From: Limimaricola variabilis
Lineage (GTDB): Bacteria > Pseudomonadota > Alphaproteobacteria > Rhodobacterales > Rhodobacteraceae
Direction of reading: 5' to 3'
Length of the DNA stretch: 64,000 nt
NCBI RefSeq assembly: GCF_014195545.1
Contig: NZ_JACIBX010000009.1
Span: 62,001 to 126,000, forward strand
Shown: positions 1,094 through 58,018 of the stretch, one piece after another
How the letters are laid out: every line of letters begins with the position of its first letter
Numbering within the stretch: position 1 is the first letter of the stretch
Notes under the pieces: model-generated
The model's input: only the letters and a program-made list of their open reading frames with translations
Told to the model about the DNA's origin: nothing
Databases searched by the model: none
Position numbers and translations under genes: made by a program

Positions 1094-1677
1094 TGCTCGG
1101 CCAGCGGCGGCGGGTCCAGATCGAGACCGAGCGGCTGACCCTGCGCCCGCCCGTGCATGGCGATTACCGGGCCTGGGCGGCGCTGCGCGAGGACTCGGCG
1201 GATTTCCTGACCCGCTGGGAGCCGACTTGGGCGGCCGACCACCTGACCCGCCGCGCCTTCACCAACCGCGTCTACTGGGCGCAGCGCTCGATCGCCCAGA
1301 ACACCGCGCTGCCGCTGTTTCTGATCCGCCGCGCCGACCAGATGCTGCTGGGGGCCATTACCCTCGACAACATCCGCCGCGGCCCAGCACAGGCGGGCAC
1401 GACCGGCTACTGGATCGGCAAACCCTTCGCCCGCGCGGGCTACATGCGCGAAGCGGTGCTGGCGGTGGTGCACCACGCCTTCAACGTCATGGATCTCAGC
1501 CGCATCGAGGCGGGATGCCTGCCGGAAAACACCCCCTCGCGCCGCCTGCTCGAAAGCTGCGGCTACAAGTATGAGGGCGTGGCGCAGAGTTACCTGCAGA
1601 TAGACGGACGCTGGCGCAACCATGTGCTCTACGCCAATCTGCGGGCCGACCGGCGCGGTCGCGCCGAGACTGGCTAG
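1093..1677 (+). CDS. RimJ/RimL-type GNAT N-acetyltransferase
   Basis: A 194-residue GNAT protein of the RimJ type, which acetylates N-terminal amines (of ribosomal protein S5 in Escherichia coli). The N-terminal ETERLTLRPP strand, the central TTGYWIGKPFARAGYMREA acetyl-CoA-binding region and the C-terminal ENTPSRRLLESCGYKYEG are all characteristic. The ATG overlaps the stop of the M16 peptidase by one base, a coupled two-gene arrangement that is common in this bacterial group. The true substrate cannot be read from sequence; other small-molecule or protein amines are possible. Confidence 0.85.
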   Translation: MLGQRRRVQIETERLTLRPPVHGDYRAWAALREDSADFLTRWEPTWAADHLTRRAFTNRVYWAQRSIAQNTALPLFLIRRADQMLLGAITLDNIRRGPAQAGTTGYWIGKPFARAGYMREAVLAVVHHAFNVMDLSRIEAGCLPENTPSRRLLESCGYKYEGVAQSYLQIDGRWRNHVLYANLRADRRGRAETG

Positions 1678-20230: not shown

Positions 20231-20263
20231 AGGGCTGGCACCGACGGGTGCCAGCCCTTTTCG
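20231..20263 (+). terminator. Rho-independent terminator after yghU
   Basis: An 11-base perfect GC-rich stem (GGGCTGGCACC / GGTGCCAGCCC) with a tetraloop and a TTTTCGTTT tail, between yghU and the convergent transglycosylase gene. Confidence 0.88.
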
Positions 20264-47335: not shown

Positions 47336-47787
47336 AGAGACCTCCGTTCAGAAAGCAGTTCAGTCGCTGTCCGATATTGGGGATCGGCCCGCTCTTTTCA
47401 AGTGTGTCGGGGCGGGTCGCCCCTCGCTCTGTGACGCTTTCGGGCGCGTTTGGAGAGCCGGAATATCAGCGCCGCTCGTTACGTTGCGTCGTGTTCGTTT
47501 TTAAAGCGATATTCTTACCGGGAGGAGAAGACCGGCACGCTAGCGGCATTCCGCCCGCACAACCCGAATGGCGTTGCAATTCATGAAGTTGCGATACAAT
47601 CCTGACCTTCCGGACAGGTGCCGCCCTGCGGATGCCCCGATTTCTGATCTAAAAGCAATGATGACCGATGCAACCAAAACGTGTCTTAATGGATATATAC
47701 TGACGGGCAGTTCTTGCTCGAACATTAATCGACTTGGGAGCGTCGCTATCCGGGAGGAGGGCGTCCGAAGGTAGGAAGGCCGGCATT
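47336..47787. other. Long intergenic region before the XRE regulator
   Basis: 452 bases without a credible gene and less GC-rich than its neighbours. It must hold the promoters of the BI-1 gene and the XRE regulator. TTGCAA (47574-47579) and TACAAT (47595-47600) form a possible plus-strand promoter with a short 15-base spacer, which would give a leader of about 180 bases. I see no tRNA, riboswitch or terminator. Confidence 0.5.
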
Positions 47788-56080: not shown

Positions 56081-56686
56081 TCAGAGCGCCGCGAGGATCG
56101 GCCAGAGCGTGGCGACCAGCAGCGCCGCCATCGTGACGTTGAAGATCCTGAGACGGCGGGGCTGCGACAGCAGGCGCCGCAGCGAAGTCCCGAGCACGGT
56201 CCATAGCCCGGCCGAGACCGTGCCCATCACGGCGAAGACCGCCACCACCAGCGCCACACCCCAGAGCCCGGCATCCCCGACATAGGCGCTGGTTGCCGTC
56301 ACCGACATCGCCCAGGCCTTGGGGTTCACCCATTGGAACGCCGCTGCCTGAATGAAGGTGAGGGGACGACCCTCGGTCTCGGGCGCGTCGGCCGATTTCG
56401 GCGCCGCCGTGGCGATCTTCCAAGCCAGCCAGAGCAGGAAGCCGATCGAGGCGATCCGCAGCACGGTGGTCAGCGCCGGCCACAGCTCGAAGACCCGTGC
56501 AAGTCCGAGGCCTACGAGTCCGGCCATGGCGGCGAAGCCCAGCGCCACGCCCGCCATGTGCGGCACCGAGCGGCGCAGCCCGAAATTGGCGCCCGAGGCC
56601 ATCAGCATGAAGTTGTTCGGCCCCGGCGTGAACAGGGTCACGAGGGCGAAGCCCATCAGGGCGGGCAGGAGCGCGAGCGAGGTCAT
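56081..56686 (-). CDS. LysE/RhtB family amino acid exporter
   Basis: A 201-residue inner-membrane protein with about six helices. The N-terminal LVTLFTPGPNNFMLMASGAN is the LysE/RhtB signature and FQWVNPKAWAMSVTATSAYV the second. I use the ATG at MTSLALLPAL; a GTG five codons upstream is the alternative. The last hairpin of the RNA array ends about 50 bases upstream on the same strand, so read-through from that transcript is possible. Confidence 0.9.
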   Translation of the reverse strand: MTSLALLPALMGFALVTLFTPGPNNFMLMASGANFGLRRSVPHMAGVALGFAAMAGLVGLGLARVFELWPALTTVLRIASIGFLLWLAWKIATAAPKSADAPETEGRPLTFIQAAAFQWVNPKAWAMSVTATSAYVGDAGLWGVALVVAVFAVMGTVSAGLWTVLGTSLRRLLSQPRRLRIFNVTMAALLVATLWPILAAL

Positions 56687-56736
56687 GCCGTCAATCTGCA
56701 CGCGTCGGGGAGAATGGAAAGTCCCAAAACGAGAAA

Positions 56737-56816
56737 CGGCGACGCCCAGGGAGGAGGAGGGGCGCCGCCGTCTGTTCCGGTCCGCGGGTCCTCAGGGAGG
56801 AGGAGGAGAACCCGTG
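56737..56816 (-). ncRNA. Two-hairpin module 7 with terminal hairpin
   Basis: Two hairpins with the full loop motif. The last (56737-56770, ten-base stem with one G-U) is followed on the minus strand by TTTCTCGTTTT and so can act as the Rho-independent terminator of the whole transcript. Confidence 0.7.
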
Positions 56817-56827
56817 TCCGTCTCTGT

Positions 56828-56904
56828 CGACCGGCGGAGCCAGGGAGGAAGAGGGCCCGGCCGGTCCATGCAACGGATGCCTGTATGGGAGGAGGGGCAT
56901 CCGT
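56828..56904 (-). ncRNA. Two-hairpin module 6
   Basis: First stem ACGGATGCC / GGCATCCGT is perfect, with a divergent loop; the second has an outer GACCGGC / GCCGGTC arm and one base change in the loop motif. Confidence 0.65.
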
Positions 56905-56913
56905 ATCCTGTGC

Positions 56914-56989
56914 GACCGGCGGGGTCAGGGAGGAGGAGGACCCCGCCGGTCTGATGCGCGCCGTTCCAGGGAGGAGGAGGGAACGGCCC
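56914..56989 (-). ncRNA. Two-hairpin module 5
   Basis: First stem GCCGTTCC / GGAACGGC; second a perfect 13-base stem GACCGGCGGGGTC / GACCCCGCCGGTC. Both loops carry the full motif. Confidence 0.7.
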
Positions 56990-57005
56990 GTATTCGAATG
57001 TCTGC

Positions 57006-57081
57006 GAGCGGCGGGGCAGGGAGGAGGAGAGCCCCGCCGCTCAGATCCACGAGGCACCCAGGGAGGAGGAGGGGCACCGCG
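57006..57081 (-). ncRNA. Two-hairpin module 4
   Basis: The first stem contains two G-U pairs that exist only on the minus strand. The second stem is perfect over 12 bases (GAGCGGCGGGGC / GCCCCGCCGCTC) and is nearly the same as in module 2, so modules 1-2 and 3-4 look like a duplicated four-hairpin unit. Confidence 0.7.
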
Positions 57082-57091
57082 CGTCTCGGTC

Positions 57092-57173
57092 GACCGGCGA
57101 GGGCCAGGGAGGAGTAGGGCCCGGCCGGTCTGATCTACGTGCGCACCCCAGGGAGGAGGAGGGGGCGGCCCGT
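57092..57173 (-). ncRNA. Two-hairpin module 3
   Basis: Closely similar to module 1 in both stems and in the TAGATCA linker. The second loop has one substitution in the motif. Confidence 0.7.
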
Positions 57174-57187
57174 ATTCGAATTCCTGC

Positions 57188-57257
57188 GAGCGACGGGGCA
57201 GGGAGCCCCGCCGCTCTTTGGTCCGCGTGCGCTCCAAGGGAGGAGGAGAAGCGCCCG
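57188..57257 (-). ncRNA. Two-hairpin module 2 (one truncated loop)
   Basis: The first hairpin has a normal loop. The second has a near-perfect 12-base stem (GAGCGACGGGGC / GCCCCGCCGCTC) but a shortened loop lacking the repeated CTCC motif. Confidence 0.7.
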
Positions 57258-57266
57258 TGGTGTGCG

Positions 57267-57346
57267 ACCGGCGAGGGCCGGGGAGGAGGAGGGCCCGGCC
57301 GGTCTGATCTACGCGCGCGCCCCAGGGAGGAGGAGGGAGCGGCCCG
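57267..57346 (-). ncRNA. Two-hairpin module 1
   Basis: First hairpin begins ACGGGCC in the sense strand; about seven bases later (TAGATCA) comes the second, with arms GACCGGC / GCCGGTC plus GGGCC / GGCCC. Nearly a copy of module 3. Confidence 0.7.
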
Positions 57347-57363
57347 TATCTCGGTGTTCGTCA

Positions 57364-57477
57364 AGGCGACGGCATCAGGGAGGAGGAGATGCCGTCGCCT
57401 CGTTGCGGATCGCCCAGGGAGGAGGAGGGGCGATGCCGCTGCTCGCGACCGGTTCAGGGAGGAGGAGGAACCGGTCG
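57364..57477 (-). ncRNA. Three leading hairpins of the array
   Basis: The first three hairpins after the DUF1127 stop are spaced by only 4-6 bases and have perfect or one-bulge stems of 9, 11 and 12 bases (for example AGGCGACGGCAT / ATGCCGTCGCCT). They do not follow the two-hairpin module pattern below and may include the mRNA 3' end. Confidence 0.7.
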
Positions 57478-57490
57478 GGAAGCGGGAAAC

Positions 57491-57700
57491 TTACTTGGCC
57501 TCGGAGGCCTCGATCGCCACGCGCTTGATCATCGAGCGGCTCAGGCCGAGATCGGCGAGGTCACGGTCGCTCAGCGCCTGCAGCTCGTTGTAGGTCGCGC
57601 GATAGATCTTGTTCTTCGCCACACGGTCGGCCAGAGTGGCGCGGAAGGCGGCGATGCGCTGGCCCAGGCCAGCGCTGCGGGTTTCGGTCGTGTATGCCAT
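57491..57700 (-). CDS. DUF1127 small protein (CcaF1-like RNA-binding protein)
   Basis: A 69-residue basic protein starting MAYTTETRSAGLGQRIAAFR and ending with the DUF1127 core YNELQALSDRDLADLGLSRS followed by MIKRVAIEA. In R. sphaeroides a DUF1127 protein (CcaF1) encoded directly before the CcsR sRNAs binds RNA and assists their maturation. I start at the ATG with AAAGAGG seven bases upstream; an ATG six codons earlier lacks a site. The hairpin array starts 13 bases after the stop, so both are one transcript. Confidence 0.93.
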   Translation of the reverse strand: MAYTTETRSAGLGQRIAAFRATLADRVAKNKIYRATYNELQALSDRDLADLGLSRSMIKRVAIEASEAK

Positions 57701-57812
57701 GTCGCATACCTCTTTCATTCAGGGCCCGTTCGGGGCCGGTCTCTACTGCTCTGGTCGATCCCAGATTTGCGGGACCGGTCGTCGAAGCCGCCGTATTGCG
57801 TCTTCGAGGATC

Positions 57813-57840
57813 AAAATAGGCGCATGCTGCGGATGCACAA
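57813..57840 (-). promoter_or_regulatory. Candidate RpoH-type promoter of the DUF1127/sRNA operon
   Basis: Minus strand: TTGTGC (57835-57840), 14-base spacer, CCTATTTT (57813-57820). The CCTATTT box and short spacer fit the heat-shock sigma promoters of Rhodobacter (-35 TTG, -10 CCTATNT), which drive the homologous operon there. It predicts a leader of about 105 bases. Confidence 0.5.
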
Positions 57841-57858
57841 TCCCTCGCATCGGCAATG

Positions 57859-57869
57859 CTGCTATGCAG
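57859..57869. promoter_or_regulatory. PhaR-type dyad upstream of the DUF1127/sRNA promoter
   Basis: CTGC-TAT-GCAG, extended to GCTGC-TAT-GCAGC, the same form as the phaP operators. It lies 18 bases upstream of the proposed -35 box and also in front of mrp. Such an 11-base pattern is expected about twice by chance in this window, so it is only a candidate. Confidence 0.35.
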
Positions 57870-58018
57870 CGAATGCATGGTAAAAGTTTCATGAAAACAT
57901 GGGCTTCCCTAGGGGAATTGTGGCTTTTCTGGGGCTGCTTGCGCTTTGGGCGGCAAAGCGCGAGTCTTGCGCGGCGATCGGGCAGAGGCCTGACGAAACA
58001 CAAGGAATTGGACCCGAG

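Follow-up and report, generated by a model that had tools for sequence, protein, structure and literature searches.

What is the long series of hairpins that follows a small DUF1127 gene on the minus strand of the Limimaricola variabilis genome, and what does the number of its hairpins mean? From the letters of the window (i.e., the whole 64,000-nt stretch of DNA analysed here), an earlier note had described 17 hairpins with 13 exact loop motifs and had assigned them to the cuckoo/CcsR-type family of anti-Shine-Dalgarno (anti-SD) RNAs. This family call is right: given the DUF1127 neighbour, an Rfam ar14 match above the gathering score and the anti-SD loops, the locus represents ccaF1-CcsR (also named "cuckoo" or CIN1) in its Limimaricola form. 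Its features and those of its surroundings are listed in Table 1.

Table 1. Features of the locus and its surroundings in window positions, with the basis of each assignment.
Feature	Position	Strand	Basis
Array of 17 hairpins with anti-SD loops, one of them broken	56734..57479	-	MFE fold, motif, covariance model
Head, hairpins 1-3, Rfam ar14 match	57362..57479	-	aligned in 8 Limimaricola genomes
Candidate RNase E site: 14-nt spacer ahead of unit 1	57348..57361	-	inference from length and position; AU 0.50
Unit 1, hairpins 4-7 (A1 B1 C1 D1)	57187..57347	-	repeat comparison
Hairpin 7 (D1), loop CTCCC	57187..57215	-	motif intact in the 6 congeners having D1
Candidate RNase E site: 13-nt spacer CAGGAATTCGAAT separating units 1 and 2	57174..57186	-	inference; AU 0.62
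Unit 2, hairpins 8-11 (A2 B2 C2 D2)	57005..57173	-	80% identical to unit 1
Candidate RNase E site: 11-nt spacer separating unit 2 from the tail	56994..57004	-	inference; AU 0.55
Tail, hairpins 12-17 (A9 B9 E F G T)	56734..56993	-	11/69 pairs compensatory
Anti-SD hairpin 17, followed by T-rich TTTCTCGTTTT	56726..56773	-	sequence; conservation
DUF1127 gene, CcaF1-like, 69 aa	57491..57700	-	Pfam PF06568, E 1.4e-12
Predicted RpoHI/RpoHII-type promoter, TTG (57840) ... CTATTTTG (57819)	57812..57840	-	conservation and published features
Palindrome GCTGCATAGCAGC, possible regulator site upstream of the promoter	57858..57870	-	invariant in 8 Limimaricola genomes
LysE-family exporter gene, neighbour outside the system	56081..56686	-	Pfam PF01810

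The MFE fold of the array (window positions 57479-56734) yields 17 hairpins, and all 13 exact copies of the motif CTCCTCCTCCC in the window are located inside the array, i.e., both counts of the earlier note are borne out. When at most one mismatch is allowed, the window holds 18 matches (one of them elsewhere, at 47520, and one overlapping another) compared to 2.5 ± 1.7 in shuffled sequences. Loops with one mismatch are found in three hairpins (at 57107, 56887 and 56843). A CTCCTCCTCCC-type motif is recognisable in 16 of the 17 loops, the exception being the shortened loop of hairpin 7, and the 9-mer CCTCCTCCC is present in 14 exact copies. Four more exact motifs exist in the whole genome outside the array. 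The fold clearly exceeds that of shuffled sequences in stability, with a z-score of -14.6 on the array's own strand and of -5.3 on the other strand (20 shuffles each). Adjacent hairpins with CCUCCUCCC in the loop, which is a criterion for cuckoo RNAs, are present in the Limimaricola array. The stems had been described as mutually unrelated; this is ruled out, since hairpins 8-11 form a second copy of the unit that comprises hairpins 4-7 (80% identity). By eye, hairpins 12, 13 and 15 also resemble the A and B members of this four-hairpin unit.

The self-complementarity of the stems, on the other hand, finds support in the tail, where 11 of 69 base pairs show a compensatory change compared to 3.8 ± 1.4 in shuffles that leave kinship in; none of 500 shuffles reaches the observed value. 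Furthermore, 98.3% of the cells are paired in the tail, versus at most 47.1% when the partners are slid. That is, variable but paired stems, a further criterion for cuckoo RNAs, are found on the tail pairs. In the head, one of 38 pairs shows covariation, which is no better than in shuffles (256/500) and is uninformative because the head sequence hardly varies. Among the eight Limimaricola arrays, the mean pairwise differences of loops, stems and spacers are 0.103, 0.109 and 0.180 for the tail and 0.023, 0.043 and 0.262 for the head, respectively. Across the genus, the loops of the tail do not surpass its stems in conservation. We also looked in the Limimaricola alignments for loops that vary freely on fixed stems, which the earlier note had named as the outcome that would speak against its reading, and such a pattern is not seen there.

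We also compared the array with covariance models. For a single-hairpin model, 12 hairpins from other genera served as training set. This model detects 15 of the 17 hairpins with E < 0.01 in the 64-kb window, and its 14 best matches there are without exception located in the array; E-values of 0.07 and 0.12 are obtained for hairpins 7 and 14. We do not use the pair statistics of this model as evidence, since the training hairpins were picked for good pairing. Among the Rfam families, ar14 (RF02344) reaches 60.1 bits for hairpins 1-3 only (gathering score 58.8), while the best match of CcsR1 (RF02791) at the array has 42.8 bits, i.e., less than its gathering score of 65.3, and we thus do not file the array under RF02791. 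At gathering scores, no Rfam family is found in the 12 related loci scanned (ar14 passes in 0/12). Together with the coverage of just hairpins 1-3 here, this implies that standard annotation would probably miss most such arrays. Outside the array, the single-hairpin model also matches window positions 20231-20258 on both strands (E 0.004 and 0.009). A separate locus of the same genome that was found by the hairpin model (L281 on contig G000:C14, positions ~1460-1624, minus strand) comprises three folded hairpins with the loops CTCCTCCTCT, CTCTCCTCCC and TTCCTCCTCCC. With 42.0 bits for Rfam CcsR1 and 38.8 bits for ar14, both below threshold, it is probably a lone cuckoo-type sRNA.

To what extent is the number of 17 special? 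Within eight Limimaricola genomes, 17 hairpins are found in four (the window's genome, G006, G007 and G004), 13 in three (G003, G005 and G001) and 9 in one (G002). In several arrays, the whole-array fold misses one or two modules, which are recovered by a local stem search; for G002, one module missed by the local stem search is shown by the fold. The arrays have a common layout: a three-hairpin head, zero to two copies of a repeat unit of four distinct hairpins (171-182 nt, i.e., about 180 nt), and a six-hairpin tail. Genomes with 9, 13 and 17 hairpins hold zero, one and two full unit copies, respectively, such that the steps of four in this series match the four-hairpin unit. This suggests, from sequence comparison, that the array grows and shrinks in blocks of four hairpins. 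The identity between the two unit copies is 80% in the window, 92% in G006 and G007, and 79% in G004. Across all eight arrays, 106 exact copies of CCTCCTCCC are found for 116 hairpins. Among the four 17-hairpin arrays, the one of the window is the most decayed (14 exact 9-mers vs. 15, 16 and 16). Since most of the loop of hairpin 7 is lost here and single damaged loops are present in other congeners too, hairpins appear to decay singly inside arrays. An expansion unique to the window's genome is ruled out by the congeners with 17 hairpins and by longer arrays in relatives. The count of 17 is not unique: the seven congeners show 17, 17, 17, 13, 13, 13 and 9 hairpins, and another genus reaches up to 26.

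Beyond the genus, a neighbouring motif pair is present in 297 of 394 Rhodobacteraceae genomes; many of these show just one pair, which may be due to chance. By our reading, 13 of the 394 genomes have at least ten pairs on one strand, nine of which exceed the ten pairs of the window. Ten of these 13 were checked (set aside were the window's genome, G004, which was known already, and G325 with a count of 8 for the reversed control), and in all ten a DUF1127 gene is located directly upstream on the same strand. The proposed comparison of hairpin counts across relatives was run on named DUF1127 loci (best 80 of 322 confirmed ones, a few of them cut by contig ends), among which array size ranges from 0 to 26. 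Within these best 80, the commonest size is 8 (16/80), and at least 17 hairpins are found in 3/80, namely Alexandriicola marinus (26), Wenxinia marina (17) and Limimaricola pyoseonensis (17). Their arrays follow DUF1127 in a compact or nearly compact layout, as is the case here. Judged by spacing, the Limimaricola repeat comprises four hairpins (~180 nt), that of Alexandriicola and of Wenxinia three (~140 nt). In the 26-hairpin array of Alexandriicola marinus (G179; L131 and L068), in which the spacing recurs with every third hairpin, the copies are near-identical.

Among the 64 named arrays with at least four hairpins (again from the best 80 of 322), 39 show an alternating short/long spacing, which is expected of two-hairpin CcsRs, while 16 are compact and 9 mixed. 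Array size differs by architecture (medians 10 and 8, p 0.03, kinship ignored). The spacer AU content is 0.68 for compact, 0.37 for mixed and 0.41 for alternating arrays; these figures are not used as evidence, since stem borders in compact arrays are rough automatic ones and the spacers very short. For counting independent expansions, a DUF1127 tree has too few columns and leaves 36 of 60 inner branches open. Given that the Rfam CcsR1 model covers two hairpins, that there are four CcsRs, and that 8 is the commonest array size, we take about eight hairpins as yardstick for an R. sphaeroides-type locus. The expansion to 17 is thus about twofold, i.e., the fair version of the earlier comparison of 4 with 17 is one of about 8 with 17. 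In a class-wide sample with about one genome per family, 8/142 genomes match, two of them in Rhodobacteraceae; the remaining matches (6/140 in other families) are 1-4 scattered ones each, without arrays. The motif as well as its link with DUF1127 are known beyond this sample from the reported rhizobial ar14 RNAs (PMC7143759) and from a statement on CIN1 (PMC10253847).

No more than about 15 nt separate the array from the DUF1127 stop codon, which confirms its reported position directly downstream of the gene on the same strand (Pfam PF06568); the gene lies directly upstream of the array in all eight Limimaricola genomes. The protein has its best matches in each of the seven congeners (identity 72-97%). 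Its nearest relatives among the best 80 of 322 loci are from Limimaricola hongkongensis, L. cinnabarinus and L. pyoseonensis, with 13 hairpins in the first two species. Upstream of the gene, TTGTGC and CTATTTTG are invariant in 8/8 Limimaricola genomes. TTG...CTATTT matches the RpoHI/RpoHII promoter features described in PMC3441632 (TTG, C-14, T-13, A-12, T-9), with a spacing one base shorter than in the published numbering. No sigma-70-type promoter was found in 56600-58000, and this candidate was dropped for the locus. The palindrome GCTGCATAGCAGC has one exact copy in the window, and the 18-mer around it occurs a single time in the genome when up to two mismatches are allowed. At the other end of the locus, the stem of hairpin 17 and TTTCTCGT are kept in all eight genomes, with a shorter loop in G006. 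Hairpin 17 with TTTCTCGTTTT is absent from the results of a terminator scan, the loop limit of which is 8 nt; judged by its sequence, it probably doubles as an intrinsic terminator. The conserved RpoH-like promoter and the terminator-like last hairpin would fit one transcript. The downstream neighbour is the LysE-family exporter gene in 8/8 Limimaricola genomes.

Spacer lengths in the array range from 2 to 14 nt, and values of at least 11 nt are found only after hairpins 3, 7, 11, 15 and 16. The spacers after hairpins 3, 7 and 11 each lie ahead of a related A-type hairpin. These candidate cut spacers have an AU content of 0.50-0.62, while some of the 2-6-nt spacers show higher values (0.67-1.00). 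Apart from the gap around hairpin 7, motif distances are 39-53 nt. An R. sphaeroides-type spacing (hairpin pairs, long spacers, and an alternation of ~40/68 nt as inferred from 8-hairpin relatives) is not observed in the window's array. With regard to the 70-80-base fragments predicted by the earlier note, these spacer positions imply that such products fit the usual spaced arrays better than the compact array considered here.

As best explanation we consider the locus a stress-induced 3'UTR source of multi-hairpin anti-SD sRNAs, i.e., a ccaF1-CcsR (CIN1) operon whose array is compact as well as enlarged (probability about 0.7). We infer its expression, processing and targets as follows. An RpoH-type stress promoter would drive one predicted transcript of ~1.1 kb, in which the coding region of the small DUF1127 protein is followed by a 3'UTR with the 17 hairpins; transcription would probably end at hairpin 17. 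Nearly all hairpins would present a single-stranded CUCCUCCUCCC loop. RNase E, influenced by the DUF1127 protein, would be expected to cut within longer spacers, with those after hairpins 3, 7 and 11 as the most likely sites, such that the products would be sRNAs of about 3, 4, 4 and 6 hairpins (about 120-280 nt), unlike the two-hairpin CcsRs of R. sphaeroides. The notion that the DUF1127 protein helps cutting is not simple, since excess CcaF1 is reported to hinder CcsR maturation in R. sphaeroides (PMC8307010). The loops would pair with GGAGGAGG-rich Shine-Dalgarno sites and thereby block translation, with ABC-transporter mRNAs as a likely target class. Hairpin number would shift by gain or loss of the ~180-nt four-hairpin unit, i.e., the dose of anti-SD loops per transcript could change stepwise.

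This reading is in accordance with what is reported for R. sphaeroides, where an RpoHI/RpoHII promoter drives the cotranscription of ccaF1 and CcsR1-4, a terminator is present and the RNA is processed by RNase E; the same source describes DUF1127 genes beside CcsR-like sRNAs as frequent in alphaproteobacteria (PMC10253847). Both loci show a DUF1127 gene followed by same-strand hairpins with CCUCCUCCC loops as well as RpoH-type promoter features (predicted ones in Limimaricola) and a terminator-like end, and they presumably have the stress setting in common (PMC10253847, PMC8307010). Limimaricola differs by its 17 hairpins in place of presumably about eight, by the lack of long inter-pair spacers, by its four-hairpin repeat unit, and by a score below the Rfam CcsR1 threshold. 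Concerning alpha-r14/NfeR1 of Sinorhizobium meliloti (RF02344, ar14), the ar14 score is passed by hairpins 1-3 of Limimaricola. The same anti-SD loop motif on variable stems is found in both, and ABC transporters are among the predicted targets (PMC10746234). In contrast, ar14 RNAs have three hairpins rather than 17 in one operon, and NfeR1 is described with a sigma-70 promoter of its own, where one of the six dispersed copies was detected as expressed under the tested conditions (PMC7143759). SmelC201, SmelA075 and SmelA099 have two, three and four hairpin copies, i.e., likewise a variable number of a one-hairpin module, and SmelA075 and SmelA099 carry CCUCCUCCC loops as in Limimaricola; the described range is two to four versus 17 here (PMC3927594). 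Our literature search yielded no title on arrays of such length, while the main papers on the family may report long ones. Array size, compact layout and the four-hairpin copy-number series in one genus thus seem to be new, with priority not certain.

Does the hairpin number itself have a function? In a dose device, the number of hairpins, changed in four-hairpin units, would set the repression of GGAGGAGG-led mRNAs (some of them for ABC transporters), and compact arrays would be multivalent, holding several mRNAs or several loops per site, unlike two-hairpin CcsRs. We consider such a device rather unlikely, and the natural strains with 9, 13 and 17 hairpins form a ready series for the question whether seed number sets the strength of control. 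A sizeable possibility, albeit below even odds, is that the usual CcsR mechanism operates while the extra hairpins are immaterial, i.e., slippage or unequal recombination would add and remove tandem units, which would hardly affect fitness. This view concerns the hairpin count alone and is compatible with the mechanism of our best explanation. It would account for 9, 13 and 17 hairpins within one genus, for the tolerated broken loop of hairpin 7, and for array sizes of 0-26 in the named loci (best 80 of 322), a few of which are cut by contig ends. The largely intact state of the hairpins (106 exact copies of the 9-mer among 116 hairpins) speaks against it, but recent duplication without selection would be compatible with this count as well.

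Many near-identical loops on one predicted transcript, compactly spaced in Limimaricola, and the constant partnership with DUF1127 in the long-array genomes examined could also be expected of a multivalent sponge, i.e., an uncut RNA whose pyrimidine-rich loops bind protein (the DUF1127 protein, Hfq or another) in a CsrB/RsmZ-like manner, without mRNA pairing. CcaF1 of R. sphaeroides is indeed reported to bind RNA (PMC10253847), and CcsR to interact with Hfq (PMC8307010). We deem a sponge improbable, given that the loop is an anti-SD sequence and that related loops act by mRNA pairing, as described for NfeR1 of S. meliloti, the three hairpins of which have mutually redundant anti-SD loops that silence ntrB by base pairing (PMC10746234). 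Moreover, the CcsR RNAs of R. sphaeroides are reported to be cut from a precursor (PMC8625941), and the CsrB-like behaviour is an analogy. The position of the array straight after the gene and its strong folding (z -14.6) would suit an action in cis, in which the structured 3'UTR would either protect the DUF1127 mRNA or limit it. This is very improbable: a stabiliser would need no common anti-SD loop in nearly all hairpins, and the DUF1127 start region AAAGAGGTATGCGACATG matches the loop, by eye, only briefly. Open frames cross the array region, but the chance of a protein-coding repeat or a DNA-level repeat element is negligible. The 13 exact motifs are spread over all three reading phases, which rules out a protein-coding repeat, the tail shows compensatory base-pair changes, and the array follows DUF1127 on the same strand in 8/8 Limimaricola and 10/10 other long-array genomes.

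Finally, we evaluated candidate targets of the predicted anti-SD sRNAs. The pattern GGAGGAGG at 2-11 nt before an ATG is matched 65 times in the genome, including 3 matches on the strand opposite to the array and a few duplicate counts of a site, compared to 9 times for the reversed pattern. The control Shine-Dalgarno sequence AAGGAGA shows a like excess (95 vs. 4 for the reversed pattern), which implies that the GGAGGAGG sites are real Shine-Dalgarno sequences and gives no sign of target choice. Among 62 GGAGGAGG loci, open frames with a length of 60 aa or more are present in 44, where some sites are represented twice, and 20 genes with long frame and plausible spacing were picked by eye for the Pfam search; the rest includes many short or internal frames. 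Controls are based on the first 30 of the 95 AAGGAGA matches (contigs 1 and 2 only), 21 of which have frames of at least 90 aa; 20 were scanned, with L208 left out. According to our own reading of the Pfam results, ABC-transporter domains are present in 8/20 GGAGGAGG genes and in 4/20 control genes (p 0.15), where the two sets were not chosen alike due to the by-eye pick versus first-listed loci. Without the control with an internal start the ratio is 3/20 (p 0.08), and also without a SufC-like gene 2/20 (p 0.03). That is, the candidate targets lean weakly to ABC-transporter genes.

In the deep congener G004, 48 matches of GGAGGAGG starts are found (47 loci taken, 33 with frames). For four orthologous pairs with such starts in both genomes, the alignment begins at residue 1; three of these pairs are ABC-transporter parts and one is GNAT, and two further pairs are partial (L154/L254 and L164/L245). 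The lean to ABC transporters fits the target predictions reported for NfeR1 and is to be taken as a lead only; the CcsR target named for R. sphaeroides is flhR (PMC8307010). L199 (G000:C22; IS110-type transposase by Pfam) and L172 (G000:C4) show nearly the same N-terminus and the same GGAGGAGG start region, i.e., some of the Shine-Dalgarno matches are copies of mobile elements.
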